64,000 nt of DNA, taken from assembly GCA_913056455.1 (NCBI GenBank), contig CAJXMJ010000001.1, positions 620,001-684,000 on the forward strand, in the 5' to 3' direction. Below are positions 5,701 through 52,446 of this stretch, piece by piece. This DNA comes from an uncultured Fodinibius sp. (GTDB lineage Bacteria > Bacteroidota > Rhodothermia > Balneolales > Balneolaceae). Below the pieces are notes generated by a model. It searched no databases and had not been told where the DNA came from. It was given only the letters and a program-made list of their open reading frames with translations. The translations under genes were made by a program, and so were the position numbers. How positions within the stretch are numbered: position 1 is the stretch's first letter; every line of letters begins with the position of its first letter.

Positions 5701-6390
5701 ATGTCAAAAATAAAAGTATCATCAACTATGTGCTTTTCATTCAGATCATCACTTTTCGCTACCTTGTTAATCGCAATTACTATGATATTTGCTTGTGAAG
5801 GACCGCAAGGCCCACAGGGTCCGGCTGGTCCACAGGGTCCAGAAGGTGATCAGGGGCCAAAAGGTGAAGAGGGTAATGCCAATGTTACTTCCGACAGCGT
5901 GACCGTCACCGATTCGGACTGGCAGCGGGGTTGGTTTGACTATCAAACAGGCAACAGTCAAGTGAGCCGTCCGGCTCTGGTTGATACAATTGAGGTTTCG
6001 GCTTTAACGGAATCAATCTATAAGTCGGGAATGGTGATTGTTTATTTTAAAAATGTTGATTCCGACTTTGGGGTATCCAAAGAGTGGATTGAGCTACCCT
6101 TTGAGTTTTTGTCGTTTAATAATGAATTCTATTACAATATGAGATATACTTATCAGGAGGGACAGATCGAACTTTTCTATTTTTTTACTCAGAACAGTGC
6201 TAATAGCTCGACACCAGATCTAAGTAACTTCACAGTTCCGGACTATCGATTCAAATGGGTGGTGGCTTCGAGTGACGCTGCCAGTAAAATGAAAAAAGAT
6301 GATGTAAAGATTTCCAATCATAACGAGGTCATGAATTATCTTGAGCGAGAATTTAATAAAGGTAGTGATTATAAAATTCGTCGTAACTAA
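5701..6390 (+). CDS. Collagen-like repeat lipoprotein, unknown function
   Basis: 229 residues from the ATG at 5701, which has a purine-rich AAGAGAGG about ten bases upstream; an in-frame TTG at 5668 is less likely. A hydrophobic signal segment ends in MIFAC, a usable lipobox. Directly after the Cys come eight Gly-x-y triplets (GPQ, GPQ, GPA, GPQ, GPE, GDQ, GPK, GEE), a short collagen-like stalk, then about 180 residues with no motif I recognise. Short collagen-like lipoproteins of this layout are common in Bacteroidota and Balneolota genomes, with unknown role. I infer an outer-membrane or surface anchor with a stalk. It is monocistronic, with a terminator right behind it. Confidence 0.8.
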   Translation: MSKIKVSSTMCFSFRSSLFATLLIAITMIFACEGPQGPQGPAGPQGPEGDQGPKGEEGNANVTSDSVTVTDSDWQRGWFDYQTGNSQVSRPALVDTIEVSALTESIYKSGMVIVYFKNVDSDFGVSKEWIELPFEFLSFNNEFYYNMRYTYQEGQIELFYFFTQNSANSSTPDLSNFTVPDYRFKWVVASSDAASKMKKDDVKISNHNEVMNYLEREFNKGSDYKIRRN

Positions 6391-6405
6391 ATAATATTGA
6401 AGTGA

Positions 6406-6440
6406 AAGTCGGTGCCTTTTCTGGAGGTACCGGCTTTTTT
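6406..6440 (+). terminator. Rho-independent terminator after the collagen-like lipoprotein
   Basis: Arms AGTCGGTGCC and GGTACCGGCT pair over ten bases with two G-T wobbles around a nine-base loop, followed by six T. Confidence 0.85.
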
Positions 6441-6517
6441 ATTAGAAGGTTAAAAAGTTTACGTTAGATGCGTATATTTTTACTTGTAATTTGAAAACTT
6501 TCACTTGACAAAAAAAT

Positions 6518-7597
6518 ATGTTTAACGAGTCAGAAAAGGATTTTTTAGAAGAATTATTGGTAACGCCAAGTCCCACGGGTTTTGAATCGGCGGGACAGCA
6601 GGTTTGGACCGAATATGTTGATGATTTTGCCGATAGTGTAGAAGCAGATGCCTACGGGTCAGCGTATGCCAAGCTGAATACCAGCTATGATGTTGCTACC
6701 ATCATGTTAGAGGCCCACTGCGATGAAATCGGCATGATTGTACAGCACATAACGGATGACGGCTATATTTTTATTAATAAGCTGGGGGGAAGTGATTCGA
6801 CCATTGCTCGGGCAAAGCGCGTAAATATTCATGCTCGTAATGGTATTGTCTCCGGCGTCACTGGTAATACGGCAATCCACCTGCAGGACAAAAAGAATGG
6901 AGGAGGTGAGCAGCCCAAGTGGAAGGATATATATGTGGATATTGGTGTATCGAGCAAGGAAGAGGCATTAAAGTTGGTACAGGTTGGTGATCCTATTACT
7001 TATGCTGATGAATACGATTATCTGTCTGATGAAATTATTTCGGGCAGAGCATTGGACAACCGCATTGGTGGGTTTATGATTGCCCAGGTGTTGAAAAAGC
7101 TGAATGAGCGTCGTAGCGATTTGAAGGTAAATGTGGTAGCATTGAACTCCGTACAGGAAGAGGTGGGCGGTTACGGGGCACGCATGATGAGTTATCGCAT
7201 TGATCCCGATGCGGCATTGGTAACCGACGTAACACATGCCACCGATACCCCCGGCATTGATCATAAAGAACATGGTTTAGTTAAGCTTGGAAAAGGACCT
7301 TCTATTCAGCACGGTGGGGCTAACCATCCTAAAATCGTGGAGTTTATTGAAGATGTTGCAAGCAAAAACGAAATAGAGCTGCAACACGAAGCTACCAGCG
7401 TGCGGACCGGTACCGATACCGATAGCATTTTCTATCAAAAAACCGGTATTCCAAGTGCACTGATTTCTCTCCCGCTCCGATACATGCATTCTCCGGTGGA
7501 GACAGCTTCATTTCAAGACATTGAAGCACTTATTGAATTGATGACTGAGTCTGTTCTTGACATGGCTCCTGACCAAACATTCCAGGTGCTAAAGTAA
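6518..7597 (+). CDS. M42 family metallo-aminopeptidase
   Basis: 359 residues. All metal and catalytic positions of the M42 (glutamyl aminopeptidase/TET) family are visible: EAHCDEIG (His67, Asp69), GRALDNRIGG (Asp180), VQEEVGGYGA (catalytic Glu214 and Glu215), VTDVTHATDTPG (Asp237) and YMHSPVE (His324). There is no signal peptide, so it should act in the cytosol on peptides, where family members form large self-compartmentalised assemblies. It stands 71 bases before the secreted M1 aminopeptidase, so both stages of peptide breakdown lie side by side. Start ATG lacks a strong Shine-Dalgarno. Confidence 0.93.
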   Translation: MFNESEKDFLEELLVTPSPTGFESAGQQVWTEYVDDFADSVEADAYGSAYAKLNTSYDVATIMLEAHCDEIGMIVQHITDDGYIFINKLGGSDSTIARAKRVNIHARNGIVSGVTGNTAIHLQDKKNGGGEQPKWKDIYVDIGVSSKEEALKLVQVGDPITYADEYDYLSDEIISGRALDNRIGGFMIAQVLKKLNERRSDLKVNVVALNSVQEEVGGYGARMMSYRIDPDAALVTDVTHATDTPGIDHKEHGLVKLGKGPSIQHGGANHPKIVEFIEDVASKNEIELQHEATSVRTGTDTDSIFYQKTGIPSALISLPLRYMHSPVETASFQDIEALIELMTESVLDMAPDQTFQVLK

Positions 7598-7668
7598 ATC
7601 AAAAATGTTATACCAGACTTGCTATAGTCTGAATAGAAATATCATTTATAAATGTAAAATGGCCTAAT

Positions 7669-9645
7669 ATGATAAACATAAAGTCATTATTTGTTCTTTT
7701 TTTGTCTTTGGTACTGGCAACATCATTACAAGCACAAGAACAGACGTCGAATACTGTTCAGGAAGCTTTTCTTCCGTATGAAACCGGAGAAAGCACACTA
7801 TACAGAAGCGCAAGCGGCGAGCCGGGCAAAGCTTATTGGCAAAACTCAGCTGATTATACCATTGATGTCCAGCTTTATCCCAGTGATCATAGAATAGAAA
7901 CATCGATCACTATTGATTATACCAATAACAGTCCGCAGAACTTAACATTTGTATGGCTGCAACTTGATCAGGATCTGTTTGAAAAGGATTCGTGGGGTGC
8001 TAAACTGACACCGCCCGGGGGAGGACGGTTTGGTAATGAAGGATTTGACGGTGGTATTGAGATTGACAAAATTAGGGTTACCCATAATGGAGATACCTAT
8101 AATCCCGAAATACATACAGTTGATACGAATTTAAAGTTGAACCTTAAAGAAGCTCTTGAGGCCGAGGGTGGAAAACTACAAATCAGTTTAGATTATAGTT
8201 TTACTATTCCTGAGGAGGGCTCTGATCGTTTGGGACGTCTTGATACCAAAAATGGGATCATTTATGAAGTTGCCCAGTGGTATCCCCGGATGGCTGTTTA
8301 TGATGATGTCAAGGGATGGAATGTGATGCCATATTTGGGAGCCGGTGAGTTTTATATGGAATACGGGACTTTCAACTATTCAATTTCAGCACCAGCCGAA
8401 TTTGTTGTCGTCGCTTCCGGTGAACTCTTGAATCCGGCGGATGTACTTACCAAAGAACAGCAAAATCGAATGGAGAAGGCTCGGAATAGTGATGATCGGG
8501 TATATATTATCCGGAAAAATGAAGTGGGAAAAGAGGAGTCTCGTCCCGGGGGAAGTGACCGATTAACGTGGAAGTATAAGATGAAAAATACAAGAGATGT
8601 CGCTTGGGCGGCATCAAAAGCGTTTGTCTGGGATGCAGCGCGTATAAATCTGTCCGACGATGACCAAGCAATGGCTATGTCAGTTTATCCCAAAGAAGTT
8701 GCCGGTAATTCGGCTTGGGGTCGTTCAACAGAATACGTGAAAGGATCCATAGAGTTTTACTCCGAATACTTGTCAAAATATCCGTATGCCAACGCAATCA
8801 ATGTGGCCGGTACGGTCGGAGGAATGGAATATCCAGGAATTGTTTTCTGCAGCTGGCAAGCGAAGGGAGCCGGTTTGTGGGGCGTTACTGATCATGAGTT
8901 TGGCCATGAGTGGTTTCCCATGATTGTAGGCTCCAACGAACGCGAACACGCTTGGATGGACGAAGGATTCAATACCTTCATAAACAGTTTAAGTACCGCT
9001 CATTTCAATGATGGAGAGTATCATAATCCTCGAAACGCTCGTTTCCTAAATAATTGGTTTACGAGTAGTAAACATGAGCCCATTATGACGGCTCCCGATC
9101 AAATACAAGATGGGAATTTCGGTCGCGTATCGTATTACAAGCCCGCACTTGGCTTACAAATTTTACGCGAATCGATAATAGGAAAAGAACTTTTTGATGA
9201 AGCCATAAATGCGTATGTCGATCGATGGGCTTATAAACATCCTACTCCGGACGATTTCTTTAACACGATAGAAGATGTATCCGGAAGGGAACTGGATTGG
9301 TTCTGGCGGGGCTGGTTCGAGAAAACATGGACGATGGATCAGGCTGTGGATAAGGTAGCCTATACCAAAGAAGATCCTTCAAAAGGAGTATTTATCCGCA
9401 TCAAAAACAATGGTAAGCTGGTGATGCCGGTGAAGATGGAAGTCACACAGGAAAATGGAAAAACCGAAACGATAGAGCTTCCTGTACATACTTGGCACAG
9501 GGGTGATGAATGGATTGTACAGTACAATTCTACTTCTCCGCTTAAAAAAGTAGTGATTGATCCCAATAAAGAATTCCCGGATGTGAACCCCAAAAATAAT
9601 ATTTGGAAACCGGATTCGGCTGAAGCTAAATCAAAGAAAAAGTAG
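7669..9645 (+). CDS. Secreted M1 family aminopeptidase
   Basis: 658 residues. A signal peptide (hydrophobic 5-20, cleavage near LQAQ) predicts export. The gluzincin zinc site is complete: HEFGH at 409-413, with the third ligand Glu432 in AWMDEGFN. The substrate loop is GGMEYPG (384-390) in place of the classic GAMEN, as in the Bacteroidetes-type M1 branch. N-terminal residues 60-240 form the beta-rich saddle domain; the C-terminal half after about 570 is a short beta domain, without the long helical C-terminal domain of PepN. Probably trims peptides in the periplasm or outside the cell. Ends before a strong terminator. Confidence 0.93.
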
Positions 9646-9675
9646 TAGCATTTGTTAATAGGGCGGTTTAAGTGA

Positions 9676-9709
9676 AAAGGCCTGCATTCATTTATGCAGG
9701 CTTTTTTTA
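9676..9709. terminator. Terminator between the M1 peptidase and sua5
   Basis: GCCTGCAT and ATGCAGGC form an eight-base stem around a six-base loop. Seven T follow on the plus strand and four T on the minus strand, so it can serve both convergent genes. Confidence 0.88.
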
Positions 9710-9763
9710 TTGCATAATTGTTTCTATTTGGGATGAAATATTCCAAAATAGAAGAATCCCAAA

Positions 9764-10696
9764 TTACCCAATCGCTTTAGAAATACGGTTTTCGAGGGCT
9801 TGAACAATCGGATTTTGGAGTTGTTCTTCAGAAAATGGTTCAATAAACACGTATTGTAATTGCTGGTGGTCAGCGTGGCGAAATCGATCGTATAGTTCGT
9901 GGGCCATTTTTTTGAAGTTTCCATCATAATGAATAACACGATTGTTTTTACGAGGAGTAGGCTGGCTGTGCAGTAAGTACAGGGCTTCTTCCACAAAAGT
10001 GGTATCACCGTCACTTATCCATCTGACCTTAGCCTTTGGAGAATAGTGCGAATATTTGGTACCGGGACTTTTAGCTGTTTCATTATTTGAAGGATTGCTA
10101 TCACGAATAACCCCTTTGTCGGTTACCCTTTCAATTTCATCAGCACTTACAGCACCGGGACGGTAAATAGTATAAGGCTTAGAGGTAATATCCAATACCG
10201 TAGATTCAAGTCCGATCTCGGTTTCTCCGGCATCCACAACAGGAAAATCAGTACCAAAATCTTCTTTGACGTGCTCTGCTTTGGTAGGACTAGGCTTACC
10301 CGATGAGTTAGCGCTGGGAGCTACTACCGGTCCGGCCATTGCAATAAGCTGTTGCGAAAGAGGATGTTTGGGCCAGCGCAAGGCTACGGTATCCAGCCCT
10401 GCAGTGATAATATCGAGTACTTCCGGTTTCTTTTTAAAGATAAGCGTAAGAGGACCCGGCCAATAAGCATCCATCAGTTTATGAGCATCATCTGAAACTT
10501 CGGAAGCAAAATCTTCAACCTGTTTCTTATCAGAAATGTGTACGATAAGTGGGTTGTCAGAGGGACGTCCTTTAATTTCGAAGACCTTTTGTATGGCATC
10601 GGGATTTTTAGCATTAGCACCGAGCCCATATACCGTTTCTGTGGGAAAAGCAACCACTTCTCCCGTTTTAAGAAGGTTTATATACCGATCAAGCAA
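9764..10696 (-). CDS. sua5: L-threonylcarbamoyladenylate synthase (Sua5 form)
   Basis: 310 residues. It makes threonylcarbamoyl-AMP from threonine, bicarbonate and ATP for the t6A base of ANN-reading tRNAs. The YrdC domain (about 1-200) shows PTETVYGLG, KGRPSDNPLIVH (the KxR pair) and PSANSSGKPSPT (the SxN motif). Then comes the SPGTKYSHYSPKA linker, which closes over the active site, and a C-terminal Sua5 domain (about 225-310). This marks the long Sua5 type rather than the short TsaC. The start overlaps the mfd stop by eight bases, so it is translated from the mfd transcript. Confidence 0.93.
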   Translation of the reverse strand: MLDRYINLLKTGEVVAFPTETVYGLGANAKNPDAIQKVFEIKGRPSDNPLIVHISDKKQVEDFASEVSDDAHKLMDAYWPGPLTLIFKKKPEVLDIITAGLDTVALRWPKHPLSQQLIAMAGPVVAPSANSSGKPSPTKAEHVKEDFGTDFPVVDAGETEIGLESTVLDITSKPYTIYRPGAVSADEIERVTDKGVIRDSNPSNNETAKSPGTKYSHYSPKAKVRWISDGDTTFVEEALYLLHSQPTPRKNNRVIHYDGNFKKMAHELYDRFRHADHQQLQYVFIEPFSEEQLQNPIVQALENRISKAIG

Positions 10697-13600
10697 GACT
10701 AACCTCTCTTTTTTTGTCGGTTGATGGAGCCAATTCTTTTAAAAATGCTGCAGCTGCTTCCAAGTCTGGAATATCTTGAACAGCGAAGCGTACCCGGTCT
10801 TCTTTCTGGATGACCTGGTATCTGCCTTCGGTTTTTTCCTGCATTTTCTTAAGCAGGTGTTGGAAACGGTCGCCATAAAATTCTTCTCCCAGATCAGAAT
10901 CATGTTTTGGACACTCAAGCCACATACGGTTTGACCGAATACGGACTTTCGTCATAAATAAACGCGATGCATAAAGCTTGACAACTGAAGCGGTAATCAG
11001 ATTTTGTGTGGCTTCGGGAATGGGGCCAAAGCGATCTTTCACTTCCTCTTTCCATTCCTTGATGGTTTCCAGATCTTCAGCGCCGGCCAGTTTTCGATAC
11101 AGGTTCAGCCGTTCTACATTGTCTGATACATAATCATTTTCGAGCAGGGCAGGGAGGTCGAATTCAACCTGTGTTTCCGGCAACTCAACTTCTGTTTCTA
11201 CATCGCTAAACACATCGCTGAATTCTTCTTCCTTGAGTTCTTTGACCGCGTCGTTGAGAATTTTTTGGTACAAATCAAAGCCAAGATCATTGATAAATCC
11301 GCTTTGTTCAGCTCCCAGAATATCACCGGCACCGCGTATATCAAGGTCGCGCATCGCAATATTAAATCCTGATCCCAAGTCAGAAAATTCTTCCAATGCA
11401 AGCAATCGTTTACGGGCGTCATCGGTGAGCGATTTAATGTCTTTGGTAATCAGATAACAAAAAGCCTTTCGGTGTGATCGTCCCACGCGTCCCCGCAGCT
11501 GGTGGAGTTCAGCCAATCCAAACATGTCTGCACGGTTGATGATCATCGTATTGGCATTGGAGATATCGATACCGTTTTCAACAATATTGGTAGAAACAAG
11601 CACATCAAACTTGTGCTCGTAGAAATCTTCAATAATATTTTCCAGCTGTTTAGAGCTCATTTGTCCGTGAGCAAAGCGTACGCGAACGTTGGGCATTATC
11701 TCGCGTACCATATTAGCAATAGACTCTATTGTTTTTACCCTGTTGTGGATGAAGAAAACCTGTCCGCCCCGCGAAACTTCTTGTGAAATCGCATCCTGAA
11801 TAAGCTCTTTGTCAAAGCTGTGAATTTCCGTCTCTACCGGCTGTCGATTAGGCGGGGGCGTATTGATAATACTGAGATCGCGGGCGCCCATCAGCGAAAA
11901 TTGAAGCGTTCTTGGGATAGGTGTAGCTGTAAGGGTAAGTACATCTACGGTAGCGCGATATTCTTTAAGCTTTTCTTTGGTTTTGACGCCGAAACGCTGT
12001 TCTTCATCTACAACCAAAAGACCCAGGTCATCAAATTCTACATCCTTAGAAGTAAGACGGTGCGTACCGATTACAATATCCGCTTTTCCTTCTTTGAGTT
12101 TTTTAAGTGTTTCTCTTTGTTCCTTTCGCGTTCGGAAGCGAGATAGTACCTCTACCGTAACGGGAAAATCTTTCATTCGTTCGGCAAACGTCTTGTAGTG
12201 CTGATCGGCTAAAATTGTAGTAGGCACAAGTACCGCAACTTGTTTATGATCCATTACAGCTTTAAATGCTGCGCGCACGGCGACTTCCGTTTTTCCGAAT
12301 CCAACATCACCGCAAACCAGGCGATCCATGGGGGTGTTGGATTCCATATCCGTTTTTACAGCTTCAATGGCATCACGCTGATCGGGAGTTTCCTCAAACT
12401 CAAACCGAGCTTCCATCTCGGTTTGCCAGGAAGTATCAGCAGAAAAATCAAAAGCATCTTTGGATTTTCGCTTGGCATAAAGTTCAATGAGGTCGCGCGC
12501 TATGTCTTTAACTTTTTCCTTGGTTTGTGCTTTTTTTCGTGCCCAGCGTCCCGACCCCAGCTTGCTGATCCGTGGTTGCGTGCCTTCCTTTCCGGAGTAC
12601 TTCTGGATTTTATGCAGGCTGGTTACATTAACGTAAAGCAGGGAGTTCTCCTTGTACCGCAATACTACGGATTCCTGTTCAACACCCCGTACTTCGATCT
12701 TTTTAAACCCGGCAAACTTTCCGATTCCATAATCGACATGAACAACATAATCCCCGATGTTGAGATCGCGCAGTTCTTTAATGGATATATTGCTGGTATG
12801 ACGCTTGTGGCGGACTTTGGGACGGTGATACCTGTTAAAAATCTGATGATCTGTGTAAACAGCTAAACCCTGTTCGTTGAGGGTAAAACCTTCGTGGATG
12901 GATTGTACCGAGAGATGGTAACGTAGATCTTTGGACGGATCACCGAGAAGTTCTTCAAAACGGTCGCGCTGACCTTCATTATCACACAGGATGTACGTAT
13001 CGAAACTTTTTTTGCTGAGCTGCTCTATGTTTTCACGAAGTAGCTTGATACTCCCGTTAAAATCAGGTTGTGGGCTGGCATCCAAGCGATACGACCATGC
13101 CGGTTCACTTTTTTCTGAAAAGCCTCCCAGCTGAATACGTGCATGATTTTGATACGACTCCTGAAGGTCTTCCAGGTCCACATAAAGTTCTTCGGGCGGT
13201 AAAACTCCTTCTTTGGATTCGAGCTCGTTAAACATTTCAGAAGCTTGCTGGAAACGCTCTTCGATATCGGATTCAATAAGCGAGCGATTTAGCAGTACAA
13301 ATACGGTATCTTCATCAAAATAAGAGAGTACGCCCTGCTTTTGTCCCTTACTTAAACTGGATGCATCGGGTACGAAACGGGCTGCCTCCAAAAATGACAC
13401 AGAACGCTGTGAATCGGGATCAAACTCACGGATGGAATCCACTTCATCCCCAAAAAATTCCAGGCGGATGGGGTATTCGCCTGAGTAGGGATAGACATCA
13501 AGAATTCCGCCACGATGGGCAAATTCTCCGGGCTGATTGACAAATTTTACGGGTTCATACTCTTGGTCAACCAGCTCCTCTTTGAGAGTATCAATTTCTA

Positions 13601-46896: not shown

Positions 46897-46944
46897 GCAA
46901 GGAAGCCAAAAACTTTTAATTAGAATACGGAGGAATAAATGAAT

Positions 46945-47793
46945 CTAGTCTTTTGTTGCCGACCATTTAGAAAAACTCTTTTCCTGGCCGTTATGGTGTT
47001 GCATCATACCGTAAACCTTATCTCCCTCAACACGTCCACTAAAAATATAATTTTGATCTCCGCTTGATGCCCGTACGGTCAGCCGCTTTCCTTTTAGTTC
47101 GGCTTTGTGGATATCAAAAAAGGTATCGCTGCCATCGGTAAGTTTAACAGATATTTCCTGAAATCGTTGATTTACGGTCATATTATAGTTATTGCCATTA
47201 TAACTCCATGTCCATGTACCTTCTGTTTGGGCTGGTATCACCCAGTAGTAAATGTCGTGGCTTCTTCCATTATTTTTAACAACTACTTTTTTATCTGCTT
47301 TCCAGCTTCCCATGTCAAAGCTGTGTGAAACAACTTGCGTTCCGGGCTGTAGTTTATTGATCAGTTCGGGTCGCAGTTTTTTATTTACTGAAGGCAATAG
47401 ATACATCGTAATTACGGAAGCTTCGCTAAAGTCGGTATCAAAAATATCTTCTTCCATAAACATTATTTGATCATCAACACCTTCTCTGCGGGCATTTTCT
47501 CGGGCTTCGGCAATGCGTTCGGGATCGAGATCAATGCCATGACCATTGGCACCACGCTTGGCGGCAGCAATCACTATGCGTCCGTCACCGGATCCTAAAT
47601 CTATAACATAATCGCTTGATTTTACGTCGGTAAGATCGAGCATGCGTTCAACTACATTATTGGGAGTAGGTACGTAGGGTACATCCAGATCCTGCCCGGT
47701 AACGTGCGATGCAGAGATGAAAGTTAAACCTACCAATATGGATACTACCAAAGAGTAGTGATATAACGATTTGCCTGATGTTGGCTTTTTCAT
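46945..47793 (-). CDS. Methyltransferase-fold protein with a signal peptide
   Basis: 282 residues. A signal peptide (LYHYSLVVSILVGLTFISASH, hydrophobic 13-28, cleavage near VTGQD) is followed at 65-72 by DLGSGDGR, the SAM-binding loop of class I methyltransferases, with GIDLDPERIAEA as the acidic ribose site. Residues 95-165 complete the Rossmann fold with MFMEEDIFDTDFS. After about 180 there is a beta-rich extra domain of roughly 100 residues (GTWTWSYNGNNYNMTVNQ). SAM is not known in the periplasm, so the export signal and the enzyme fold conflict. Exported forms with this layout exist in Bacteroidota and Proteobacteria; their substrates are not known to me. Confidence 0.8.
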   Translation of the reverse strand: MKKPTSGKSLYHYSLVVSILVGLTFISASHVTGQDLDVPYVPTPNNVVERMLDLTDVKSSDYVIDLGSGDGRIVIAAAKRGANGHGIDLDPERIAEARENARREGVDDQIMFMEEDIFDTDFSEASVITMYLLPSVNKKLRPELINKLQPGTQVVSHSFDMGSWKADKKVVVKNNGRSHDIYYWVIPAQTEGTWTWSYNGNNYNMTVNQRFQEISVKLTDGSDTFFDIHKAELKGKRLTVRASSGDQNYIFSGRVEGDKVYGMMQHHNGQEKSFSKWSATKD

Positions 47794-48033
47794 AATTAGG
47801 TAACTTAAATTTGAATAAAGAAATAGTTATGTAATCTACGATGAAAACTTAAAAATGAAAGCTTTAGTTTTATTTTTAAAGAACTGTCTTTGTAATCAAG
47901 TTGTTCCTGATGGATCAAAAAATTACATTTTTTAATAGTATTGTACAGAAGAGGGGTTCTGTTGGATAATTATGTACAAAAAGTAAGAATAGTCAAAAAG
48001 CTGTAACTAAGCTTATAAAAAAGCGGGAGTGGG

Positions 48034-48444
48034 CTACAATATTACTTTAAGTACCTTAAAAAATTTTTGAGTGTTTTGCTTGTTCTTACCCCAATCAAAA
48101 AGCTGGGTTTCTAATTTACACCTGGAGTGGAAGACAACATGGGTCCCTTGGGTATTCCCCTTCATTTTGATGGTTATATGTTCTCCAAATGATTTCATCG
48201 TCCACGATGTCCGAGCTGTTATATATCCTTCGCGATAGTTTTTCTTCTGTATGGCAAAATCACAGTAATTTAAGGTACCGATAACTGCTCGAAAGACATC
48301 TTTATACCGTTTCTGAATGATCTTTTTATCCTGATATTGAGCTGTTATGGTATTCTGCCAAGTGCCATTTCGTCGATAGATCAACCACATTATAAGAAAG
48401 GTTCCGAGAGCAATTTCGAAACTATAGTTGAATAAAAAGTTCAT
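48034..48444 (-). CDS. Small membrane-anchored conserved-looking hypothetical protein
   Basis: 136 residues. The N terminus is hydrophobic (about 3-22: FLFNYSFEIALGTFLIMWLIY), probably one membrane helix. The rest is a compact alpha/beta domain with RAVIGTLNYCDFAIQKKNYREGYITARTSWTMKSFGEHITIKM (key parts LNYCDFAIQKKN and GYITARTSWTMKSFGE) and FDWGKNKQN near the end. The pattern of a helix, then strands with GxIxA and SxGE, resembles small envelope proteins that look at lipids, but I cannot name the family. Gene spacing suggests it is independent of the histidine kinase behind it. Confidence 0.62.
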   Translation of the reverse strand: MNFLFNYSFEIALGTFLIMWLIYRRNGTWQNTITAQYQDKKIIQKRYKDVFRAVIGTLNYCDFAIQKKNYREGYITARTSWTMKSFGEHITIKMKGNTQGTHVVFHSRCKLETQLFDWGKNKQNTQKFFKVLKVIL

Positions 48445-48546
48445 TCTTTATGTGGTTTGTAATCATGAATGATAGATATAGTAAATAGTTAATGATTAAA
48501 ATAACCACAGGCAATGTATAGAGAGGAGAAAGGAGGATCTTTAATA

Positions 48547-50145
48547 TTAATATTGGAATGCTAAACTGAACGTGGTTCCCTCATCCTGTTCACTATCAAT
48601 AGAGAGGTCAGCTTTAAGCTGTTTGGAAAATTTTTTAATGAGCGTCATTCCCAACGATTTTGTTTTAAGTTTTTCTAGATCTTTCGGTAGTCCTACGCCA
48701 TTATCGCGGATATAAATATTTATTTGGTCATCCTCTACGGTACTTCCGAGCTCAATAAAACCATCAGACTTGCCATCAAAGGCATGCTTATGAGCATTGA
48801 TCAGAATTTCGTTAATCACCAGTCCAAGAGGAATTGATTCTGACATCTCCAGCCGAGCATCTTCCAAACTAAATTTGAGATCTATATCAGTATCTTTGTT
48901 GACAAATGACTGGTGGGTGAGATTGGCGATTCGTTGGATGTATTCTTTCATGCTAATATTGGAGAACGACTCATTTTGATATAGAGCCTCATGAGCCAAC
49001 GCCATCGACTTGATGCGCGAACGTGCAGTTCTGAAGGGGCTGTTATCCTTATTCTTTGAAGAGGTTTGTTCCTGCAATTCCAGCAAAGCACTTACCATGG
49101 CCAAATTATTTTTCACTCTATGATGAATCTCTTTAAGGAGAACTTTTTTCTCGTCTAAAGAGACCTTTAGCTTTTTCTGACTCTCATGGAGCTGACGCGT
49201 TCTGTTTTCGACTTCCGATGTTAGCTGTTGATTCCATCCTCCAATAAGTTTAAAAGCACCATATCCGGTTACTACAATAATACCAATAGATATCCACGAG
49301 ATAATTTCAAAGGATTCAAGAGCATTTACGACATCTATAACGGTAGCTGTTTTCTGTTCTGTCATTACCTCTTGGACTCGTAGTTTACCCAGGTATTTGC
49401 CAGAAAATATAAATAGGGCAAGTGCTCCTGTTATGGATGTTACGGCTCCGGCCACCCATTTTAAGGATAAGCGGGATCGGTCAGGCAGGGTAAATAAACG
49501 ACTCTTTATGCGTTCAATTGTGGGAGTGAATAGCCATAATAAGGGTCCCGTAATAAGGATAGCCTGAATAAAAGAACCACTCCACCAACTTTTCCATATC
49601 ATGAGGGTTTCAGAAGCAGAGAGCTGATGACTGAAACTCCAGATAAATGACCCGAGAGAGCTGCCAATAGAGGCGATAAACATGATGGAGATAAAGAATG
49701 CAATACTTTTCAAGCTTCGTAGGTCATAGGGGATATTAAATCCCTGGTACGCTGTTGCACAAATAGCTACGCCTAAGACAAATGCTATTGCAAAAATGAG
49801 CGCCCAACCCCAAGGCATGTTCGAGTGAAAGGCAATAATGAAAGAACATAAAAAGATGGGGATAAACCCCCACTCAAACCCAAACCAGAAAAAAAGGAGC
49901 AGTCCTAAAATTAGTGCAGGATTAAAAAGGAAAAACTTAATGATATCAGCACGATTGTTAGAAAATGACATCCACTCGCTGGGGAGTAGAGAGATAGTAG
50001 CATATAGCGTGCCGGCAATAGCAATCATCCATATTGCTAATATTCCCCAGACCCGCGTGTCTGTCAAGGAATAACGGGAAAGTAAAATTTCAAATGTTAA
50101 GGGCTTCCAAAGTCTGGAATCGTTTTTCTGATCCTTACCAATCAT
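48547..50145 (-). CDS. MASE1 membrane sensor histidine kinase (HisKA_2 type)
   Basis: 532 residues. The first 310 hold about eight membrane helices with the pattern of a MASE1 sensory domain. A coiled linker (about 313-345) leads to the dimerisation helix with EIHHRVKNNLAMVSALLELQ, the HisKA_2 box with its phospho-accepting His, then a HATPase with EILINAHKHAF (N box), DNGVGLPKDL and GMTLIKKFSKQL. HisKA_2 kinases often pair with single-domain or RpfG-like regulators; none is encoded beside it, so it is an orphan sensor. The signal is unknown. It is divergent from atpD across 364 bases. Confidence 0.9.
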   Translation of the reverse strand: MIGKDQKNDSRLWKPLTFEILLSRYSLTDTRVWGILAIWMIAIAGTLYATISLLPSEWMSFSNNRADIIKFFLFNPALILGLLLFFWFGFEWGFIPIFLCSFIIAFHSNMPWGWALIFAIAFVLGVAICATAYQGFNIPYDLRSLKSIAFFISIMFIASIGSSLGSFIWSFSHQLSASETLMIWKSWWSGSFIQAILITGPLLWLFTPTIERIKSRLFTLPDRSRLSLKWVAGAVTSITGALALFIFSGKYLGKLRVQEVMTEQKTATVIDVVNALESFEIISWISIGIIVVTGYGAFKLIGGWNQQLTSEVENRTRQLHESQKKLKVSLDEKKVLLKEIHHRVKNNLAMVSALLELQEQTSSKNKDNSPFRTARSRIKSMALAHEALYQNESFSNISMKEYIQRIANLTHQSFVNKDTDIDLKFSLEDARLEMSESIPLGLVINEILINAHKHAFDGKSDGFIELGSTVEDDQINIYIRDNGVGLPKDLEKLKTKSLGMTLIKKFSKQLKADLSIDSEQDEGTTFSLAFQY

Positions 50146-52009
<1,864 letters not shown>

Positions 52010-52026
52010 TAAGAGGTATGTAACCA

Positions 52027-52446
52027 ATGAACACTTTTAGTGCTCAAATATTAACTCCGGAAGGATCAATCTTTGATGATGAAGTTACCGGAGTACGAGT
52101 CCCCGGAGAGATGGGGAGTTTTGAAGTTAAGACGCTTCACGCCAACATTATTTCTTCGCTCGAAATCGGAGAAATACTGGTTCGTAAGGCAGCCGGCGGA
52201 GAACAATCATTCTCCGTAACCGGAGGTTTTGTAGAAGTCATCGATAATAAGCTAACGTTATTAGCCGAAGCTGCTGAGCCAGTGGATGAAATCGATGTTG
52301 AGCGAGCAAAACAAGCCAAAGAGCGGGCTGTTGAACGTCTCGAATCTGACGATAAGAAGATCGACAAGGATCGGGCCAGAAAAGCACTGAAACGTGCAGA
52401 AAACCGGATCAAATTATCGGTCGATATCGGGGTTAATACCCAATAG
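52027..52446 (+). CDS. atpC: F1Fo ATP synthase subunit epsilon
   Basis: 139 residues. The N-terminal beta-sandwich begins MNTFSAQILTPEGSIFDDEVTGVRVPGEMGSFEV (key part ILTPEGSIFDDEV), and the C-terminal helical pair is present (ERAKQAKERAVERLESDD). It connects the central stalk to c-ring rotation and can inhibit ATP hydrolysis. It lies 17 bases after atpD and ends before a strong terminator, completing an atpDC mini-operon. Confidence 0.93.
   Translation: MNTFSAQILTPEGSIFDDEVTGVRVPGEMGSFEVKTLHANIISSLEIGEILVRKAAGGEQSFSVTGGFVEVIDNKLTLLAEAAEPVDEIDVERAKQAKERAVERLESDDKKIDKDRARKALKRAENRIKLSVDIGVNTQ

Follow-up and report, generated by a model that had tools for sequence, protein, structure and literature searches.

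An uncultured Fodinibius sp. carries, in the 64,000-nucleotide stretch of DNA analysed here (the window), a gene for what we propose is an exported SAM methyltransferase of the aKMT type, charged outside the cytosol by a LAT-type permease that exchanges SAM for SAH, and probably methylating protein. Our confidence in this complete reading comes close to even but stops short of it. The aKMT-type enzyme would cross the inner membrane and act either within the periplasm or at the cell surface. The LAT-type exchanger would send SAM out of the cytosol and take SAH back, so that the exported enzyme would be charged with SAM outside and the SAH by-product recycled inside. The methyl acceptor would probably be a side chain of a protein, with lysine suggested by the relation to aKMT, and an avidin-like barrel at the C-terminus may help choose or hold the target. 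The SAM/SAH cargo of the permease, the protein acceptor, and the role of the barrel are the parts of the proposal that we infer.

Enzymes of the aKMT type are already known as a family; what is new is an exported form with a permease partner. SAM chemistry in bacteria is treated as cytosolic, and the periplasm is not known to contain SAM. If the proposal is true, some bacteria methylate molecules beyond the inner membrane, with a transporter delivering SAM there; a candidate bacterial SAM exporter is named, and hundreds of vaguely annotated genes gain a purpose. In those portions of the open-licence literature on periplasmic or extracytoplasmic methyltransferases and on SAM transport that were available, no exported aKMT-type enzyme or enzyme-permease pair was recognised.

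The locus

An earlier note, made from the letters of the window, had described a methyltransferase with a signal, a SAM loop, and an extra C-terminal domain, and this observation was confirmed for a 282-residue minus-strand ORF (Table 1). The same note had suggested a transcript shared with an APC permease. The permease ORF begins 48 bp past the enzyme stop on the same strand, and the scan listed no terminator-like site in the 48-bp gap. The methyltransferase was present as a single copy in the source genome (search at E up to 1e-5). The closest named record was from an uncultured Aliifodinibius (L024, 86% identical), followed by Fodinibius halophilus (L025, 59%).

Table 1. Features of the enzyme-permease locus, with positions in the window.
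Feature	Positions	Strand	Evidence
Exported class I methyltransferase (predicted), 282 aa	46945..47793	minus	ATG-start ORF and homologues
Signal peptide (predicted), residues 1-33, likely cleavage before Q34	47695..47793	minus	Alignment, hydrophobic-core test with controls, model
aKMT-like methyltransferase domain, residues 38-187	47233..47682	minus	NF041081 E 2.5e-39; PDB 5bxy, 5fa8, 5jwj
SAM-binding loop DLGSGDGR, residues 65-72	47578..47601	minus	Invariant in 77/77 aligned rows, rows partly loop-selected
Second SAM motif GIDLDP, residues 86-91, acidic residue 88	47521..47538	minus	D/E at 88 in 77/77 rows
C-terminal eight-stranded avidin-like barrel (predicted), residues 188-282	46948..47232	minus	AlphaFold2; VIA-align Z 12.9, rmsd 1.8 over 92 residues
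Enzyme-permease gap, 48 bp, terminator-like site not listed by scan	46897..46944	minus	
Partner LAT-type APC permease (putative), 438 aa	45580..46896	minus	PF13520 1.5e-40; BasC 4e-47, LAT1; co-occurrence

Several other features of the region were recorded. An Rfam search over 47000-48600 returned nothing at gathering scores. An ORF at 48034-48444 encoded 136 aa, began with a segment resembling a membrane span, and matched no Pfam family; among 103 loci it was found only in its own locus and in the nearest relative (L002, copy L024), at 77% identity. Genes for F1 ATP synthase are located nearby at 50510-52446, and atpD was present in 11 of the 103 loci (two of these being second copies). Mitochondrial FAM173B methylates the c subunit of ATP synthase, according to an excerpt of PMC9006661; a functional link with the nearby F1 genes is not claimed.

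Export of the enzyme

The N-terminus of the protein (MKK...SLVVSILVGLTFISASHVTG, continuing as QDLDVPYVPTP from Q34) is a signal peptide by composition. In an alignment of the protein with 20 close relatives (alignment A1, 21 rows), the first 33 residues drift, the hydrophobic core persists, and Q34, which follows a small residue, is invariant. The predicted structure has a helix at residues 11-26, at lower confidence. A hydrophobic signal core was found before the domain in 104 of 115 homologues, the window protein included, by a home-made rule rather than by SignalP (ten uncharged residues with a mean hydropathy of at least 2.0); the median length of the stretch tested was 42 residues, and the longest was 73. 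When the same rule was applied to 29 cytosolic controls, none had a core within the first 45 or 60 residues and one (lon) had a core within the first 75, the controls being window ORFs read by eye as cytosolic, of which RsmB alone was checked against Pfam. Dropped before the count of 115 were L018 and L023 (incomplete), L024, L025, L038, and L041 (copies), and L080 (contig end). Eight of the 11 failures scored 1.44-1.99 against the cut-off of 2.0, and the remaining 3 (L100, L113, and L128) had a start codon set too far downstream. The clear signal peptide claimed in the earlier note is thus upheld by the core, the cleavage-site residue, and the homologues.

Mean identity over 77 diverse rows was 18% for the signal region, compared to 58% for the methyltransferase domain and 31% for the barrel (the two domain averages being taken over 2926 pairs). 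The letters of the signal region drift and its character stays. Clear lipoprotein signals end the core in 6 homologues (L052, L078, L125, L126, L129, and L130). Such signals occur in Salinibacter-like, alphaproteobacterial, and betaproteobacterial homologues, and one was also read by eye in a Leptolyngbya (cyanobacterial) protein; 4 of the 10 lipobox matches (L034, L054, L062, and L073) look like chance, in or near the core, and were not counted as clear. Lipoprotein signals are processed on the outer face of the inner membrane, outside the cytoplasm. By the positive-inside rule, the positively charged flank of such a segment stays inside and the rest lies outside. Lysines precede the core, so the enzyme would be outside even if the signal were uncleaved.

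The earlier note had also considered that the protein might be anchored by its signal and work in the cytosol. The N-terminal segment would then be an uncleaved anchor holding the methyltransferase at the cytosolic face, as human FAM173 proteins probably are on the matrix side. Excerpts of PMC9006661 do describe a noncleaved N-terminal region, a putative membrane anchor, in FAM173 proteins, and the N-terminal segment of one homologue (L093) resembles a plain membrane anchor. This arrangement is nonetheless disfavoured by the lysines ahead of the core, which put the rest of the protein outside, by the lipoprotein signals in Salinibacter-like, alpha- and betaproteobacterial, and one cyanobacterial homologue, and by the retention of Q34 after a small residue; we regard it as highly improbable. 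Still further down the scale, and scarcely credible to us, is an enzyme that is folded and loaded with SAM in the cytosol, exported by Tat, and spent in a single methyl transfer. Twin arginines before the core matched a loose pattern in 7 of 115 homologues, but the other 108 were not flagged, among them the window protein, in which a twin arginine before the core is absent. One turnover per exported protein would moreover be costly, and the permease would be left unexplained. Taken together, comparison of sequences and structures gives good support to export as a trait of the family.

Methyltransferase domain and its SAM pocket

The best curated match of the METHYLTRANSFERASE domain was NF041081, an archaeal protein-lysine methyltransferase (E 2.5e-39, 134.6 bits); because this score is below the model cut-off of 200, the domain is homologous to the model rather than an equivalog of it, and the match does not establish lysine specificity. 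Membership in the class I SAM-dependent methyltransferases was found with PF13847 (47.7 bits, cut-off 27), the fold and the SAM residues being present. The best PDB sequences were 5bxy from Salinibacter (7.9e-49) and 5fa8 and 5jwj, both aKMT of Sulfolobus. The predicted structure had a mean pLDDT of 93.2. By Foldseek, it superposed on 5bxy with a TMt of 0.94 and 54% identity, and on aKMT with TMt of 0.92 (SAM complex) and 0.91 (SAH complex) at 41-44% identity.

The loop DLGSGDGR was invariant in all rows of a diverse alignment (A2, 77 rows), as was the acidic character of position 88 (D or E); some A2 rows had been fetched by a pattern containing the loop, so that its invariance there is partly by construction. 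The loop was also invariant in the 21 rows of A1, which were gathered by whole-protein search. The intact SAM loop read in the earlier note is present, as is the acidic GIDLDP strand, and loss of the loop in close homologues, which that note would have taken as a refutation, was not seen in the 21 rows. Position 38 of the aKMT4 chain corresponds in the alignment to G69 of the window protein, and a G38R mutant of aKMT4 is inactive in the account excerpted from PMC4639711; the equivalence to G69 assumes that the chain is numbered from the native Met.

The title of the crystal structure 5bxy names it an SAH complex. Its chain matches residues 50-206 of an ORF of 206 aa in locus L116, and in the alignment as printed the two differ only at the first aligned residue. 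The residues ahead of the matching part contain a signal peptide, so the protein crystallised with SAH appears to be an exported member of the family, its chain lacking the signal. In the genome concerned (G220), the enzyme and permease matches are 224 bp apart.

These results bear on a further option of the earlier note, a ligand other than SAM. If the exported domain had lost catalysis and bound something else, the want of any known periplasmic SAM would cease to be a difficulty. The SAM loop is invariant and the acidic beta2 residue is kept (in 77 rows partly selected by the loop, and in 21 rows that were not), and there is a crystal structure with SAH of a relative that is exported and linked to a permease. 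A non-SAM ligand is disfavoured by these findings, and we consider it very improbable. That the methyltransferase domain is of the aKMT type with an intact SAM pocket is well supported by sequence and structure comparison.

As a separate observation, the mad2 model of PADLOC matched the methyltransferase domain (E 1.8e-18), which raises the possibility of a domain like that of aKMT in the MADS defence protein; two other methyltransferase models matched more weakly. Comparison of the PADLOC defence models with the partner permease matched nothing.

The C-terminal barrel

The extra beta-rich domain that the earlier note had placed at the C-terminus was predicted to be a 95-residue, eight-stranded barrel. 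Its pLDDT was 97-98 by blocks in the whole model, and the barrel folded alone again gave eight strands with a mean pLDDT of 95.7 (AlphaFold2). Avidins were the best matches by VIA-align (Z 12.9, rmsd 1.8, 92 of 96 residues), the fold being that of the eight-stranded avidin barrel, although sequence identity did not exceed 15% in the avidin rows displayed. When Foldseek was given the barrel by itself, a fatty-acid-binding protein ranked first (E 2.7e-3) and avidin-family entries came lower in the list; the avidin assignment rests on VIA-align, which only re-ranks the list from Foldseek.

A profile search for the barrel in 6 genomes gave 33 matches, all 33 coinciding with or abutting methyltransferase-family matches. 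Free-standing barrels were thereby rejected for these genomes, since every match belonged with a methyltransferase gene. The barrel was absent from the homologues read from Salinibacter-like genomes, from two other phylum-sample genomes, and from two cyanobacteria. It is an accessory part and the faster-diverging of the two domains, which would fit a role in target choice.

Linkage of enzyme and permease across genomes

Co-occurrence was assessed with Fisher p values, which treat genomes as independent though they are not, and with bit cut-offs for a close orthologue that were chosen after the lists had been seen. The family sample of 92 genomes had the enzyme in 23 and a close permease orthologue (at least 540 bits; the next paralogue reached 224) in 17, all 17 with an adjacent enzyme (p 7e-14). 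The enzyme was present in 18 of the 345 genomes of the phylum sample, and the permease (E up to 1e-70) in 15, again with an adjacent enzyme in every case (p 1e-23); the phylum and family samples overlap, 9 of these 15 permease genomes being in both and 6 being new. Among 199 genomes of the Pseudomonas group, the enzyme was found in 6 and a close orthologue (at least 700 bits) in the same 6, adjacent to it (p 1e-11). As read from sequence, adjacency across phyla is a stronger argument than the p values.

The permease was nearby in 51 of the 80 named genome_contigs loci, at 40% identity or more (L077 being an 83-residue piece at a contig end), and these 51 include Bacteroidetes and alpha-, beta-, and gammaproteobacteria. 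Nine of the 29 loci without a permease hold less than 2 kb downstream (L037, L039, L042, L055, L063, L067, L076, L092, and L102); in array loci the permease is up to 4.8 kb from the enzyme, so further permease-less loci may end too early. The 15 genomes behind the chosen loci had 13 permease genes in 11 genomes, each adjoining an enzyme gene. The permease precedes the enzyme in the 6 new genomes of the phylum sample and in two plasmid loci. G397 and G399 each have two separate pairs in opposite gene order, the second pair of each genome again starting with the permease. The gene order is reversed in some lineages, yet the linkage is kept. In a quick tree of 107 methyltransferase domains, adjacency to a permease changed at least 8 times among the 92 rows that carried a label; 48 of the 104 inner branches were weakly supported, and the tree carries no weight in the argument.

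Clustering of 729 ORFs around the 80 loci produced three large clusters, with the enzyme represented in 66 loci, the permease in 42, and ORFs on the opposite strand in 33. The last are taken as antisense shadows of enzyme genes, and the next-largest neighbour cluster covered 8 loci. Ten smaller clusters were considered as other conserved neighbours and one protein from each was compared with Pfam; seven matched families judged unrelated and three matched none. In two permease-less Balneolaceae loci (L038 at 6152-11743 and L041 at 6923-11623), genes for large proteins belonging to a single cluster come after the enzyme; FG-GAP and ASPIC repeats were found in the one compared with Pfam, and these proteins are possible exported targets. 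At least 582 family loci were found in one scan, and one scan of viral contigs found no relative. Sequence and structure comparison supports well a conserved two-gene partnership of the enzyme with a LAT-type permease.

Arrays, plasmids, and genomes without a permease

A single permease can accompany as many as seven methyltransferase genes in tandem. One genome (G401, L065) has 16 enzyme genes and 1 permease, with seven of the enzyme genes on one contig stretch that ends in the permease. Two others (G407, L048, and G408, L046) have nine enzyme genes and one permease each, and a fourth (G410, L079) has 14 enzyme genes, with a permease search at E up to 1e-60 finding nothing. Many of the paralogues in these four genomes stand in tandem. 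Enzyme arrays occur in betaproteobacterial genomes, and five Salinibacter-like genomes contain three to seven enzymes each, 4 of the 5 with one permease. One permease with many diverged enzymes makes a shared cofactor a likelier cargo than one substrate.

Five plasmid records also matched, and the permease adjoins the enzyme in 3 of the 4 regions viewed. In the pairs on Agrobacterium salinitolerans pDG3-1g (L144, typed conjugative) and Leptolyngbya boryana p1 (L147), the permease is first and the two genes overlap by 17 bp or stand 17 bp apart. The five records annotate the enzyme as 'methyltransferase domain-containing protein', 'class I SAM-dependent methyltransferase', or 'hypothetical protein', and the neighbour is annotated 'amino acid permease' in 3 of the 4 regions viewed.

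The enzyme was found without a close permease in 6 of 23 family-sample, 3 of 18 phylum-sample, and 4 of 15 chosen-locus genomes, the last 4 having been picked partly because no permease was near and one of them holding 14 enzyme copies. The permease is therefore not indispensable. In these genomes, either SAM reaches the outside otherwise or another carrier serves.

The permease and its likely cargo

The partner is an APC permease by PF13520 (139.8 bits, cut-off 27), and its closest solved relatives are BasC (164.5 bits, phmmer E 4e-47) and LAT1 (about 145 bits). It scored 170.6 bits with the curated L-type model TIGR00911, below the cut-off of 701.8. Scores this far below the NCBIfam transporter cut-offs do not allow a substrate to be assigned, and an ordinary amino acid fits as well. 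As the conserved neighbour of the enzyme, the permease is the likely supplier of SAM. We propose SAM/SAH exchange because there are many enzymes per permease, because the permease belongs to an exchanger family, and because SAM and SAH are alpha-amino acids. The excerpted text of PMC6472337 describes LATs as transporters that obligatorily exchange amino acids. Among the mechanisms considered, delivery of SAM by the permease leads, although it is unproven.

Permeases linked to an enzyme were compared with unlinked ones at the amino-acid-site residues of BasC, as taken from excerpts of PMC6472337. G28 and G30 of the TM1 loop and Tyr239, which aligns with BasC Tyr236, were kept in 66 of 66 linked permeases. 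A comparison of the 66 linked permeases with 13 unlinked ones singled out T203 and F360 as specificity positions; T203 aligns with BasC Ala200 in the binding site, which is suggestive only. Leu replaces BasC Phe199 in 57 of the 66 linked permeases and also in 8 unlinked ones of the Pseudomonas group, and this position is therefore uninformative on substrate size. All 8 unlinked Pseudomonas-group permeases that were read (e.g., L131) have TTDIL instead of GxGIF in the TM1 loop, which would fit a switch of substrate. No single branch parted the 66 linked from the 13 unlinked permeases in a quick tree. Against the window permease, the best unlinked score was 288 bits and the lowest linked scores were 299 (a protein cut by a contig end) and 304.

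Another scenario is that the enzyme is an exported SAM methyltransferase whose permease carries the acceptor or the methylated product, with SAM arriving by another route or by leakage. LAT-type permeases do move ordinary amino acids, and the lineages that have the enzyme and no close permease indicate that SAM apparently gets outside without one. Related permeases also exist without the enzyme: at E up to 1e-60, a permease match was found in 23 of the 199 Pseudomonas-group genomes, and 17 of the 23 had no enzyme match, these unlinked permeases (G472 and 16 others) scoring 288-307 bits at 40-42% identity. However, a substrate transporter would be expected to diversify, and three genomes have one permease for 9-16 diverged enzymes. 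Close permease orthologues, moreover, were never without an enzyme in the three samples, two of which overlap. We judge a permease for acceptor or product unlikely, while giving it appreciable weight.

The earlier note had left three explanations side by side for a SAM-binding enzyme with an export signal. SAM supplied outside is the best supported of them, and cytosolic anchoring and a non-SAM ligand are both disfavoured. With the permease read as a SAM/SAH exchanger, a broader picture would be one of widespread periplasmic methylation, in which arrays of up to seven enzymes, served by one dedicated exchanger, act on envelope or extracellular protein targets. This broader picture is tentative, and we place it somewhat on the doubtful side of even.

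Comparison with known systems

The avidin and streptavidin likeness of the predicted barrel would be one of fold only, given the low identity in the rows shown. BasC and LAT1, the nearest solved relatives of the permease, are obligatory exchangers, whereas the permease itself falls below the cut-offs of the named subfamilies. The enzyme has the domain fold, the glycine-rich SAM loop, and the VPYVPTP start of aKMT (aKMT4 of Sulfolobus; NF041081; PDB 5fa8, 5fad, and 5jwj), but the aKMT chains have 161-172 residues and no C-terminal barrel. VPYVPTP begins at residue 7 in the matched aKMT chains, which leaves no room for an export signal. The substrates named for aKMT4 in the excerpt of PMC4639711 are nucleic-acid-related proteins in vitro. 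The closest solved structure, 5bxy of Salinibacter ruber, was deposited with SAH as an 'RNA methyltransferase', and its gene in G220 is beside the same type of permease; it differs in lacking the barrel, in having the permease upstream, and in a chain without the signal peptide of the genomic ORF.

Methylation of surface proteins is known from another kind of enzyme. Rickettsia PKMT1/2 and Acinetobacter KmtA methylate lysines of outer-membrane or surface proteins (PMC11784438, in excerpt). These are of the Rickettsia PKMT kind, and the excerpted description gives them no signal peptide or partner permease. The nearest parallel to the proposed pair as a whole is mitochondrial. FAM173A and FAM173B (ANT-KMT and ATPSc-KMT) are lysine methyltransferases that resemble aKMT and have a hydrophobic region at the N-terminus, according to an excerpt of PMC9006661, and mitochondria import SAM by SAM/SAH exchange through SLC25A26 (PMC9239748, likewise in excerpt). 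The FAM173 enzymes differ in that their N-terminus is a noncleaved mitochondrial targeting region, their SAM comes by an SLC25 carrier rather than a LAT-type permease, and their substrates are inner-membrane proteins.
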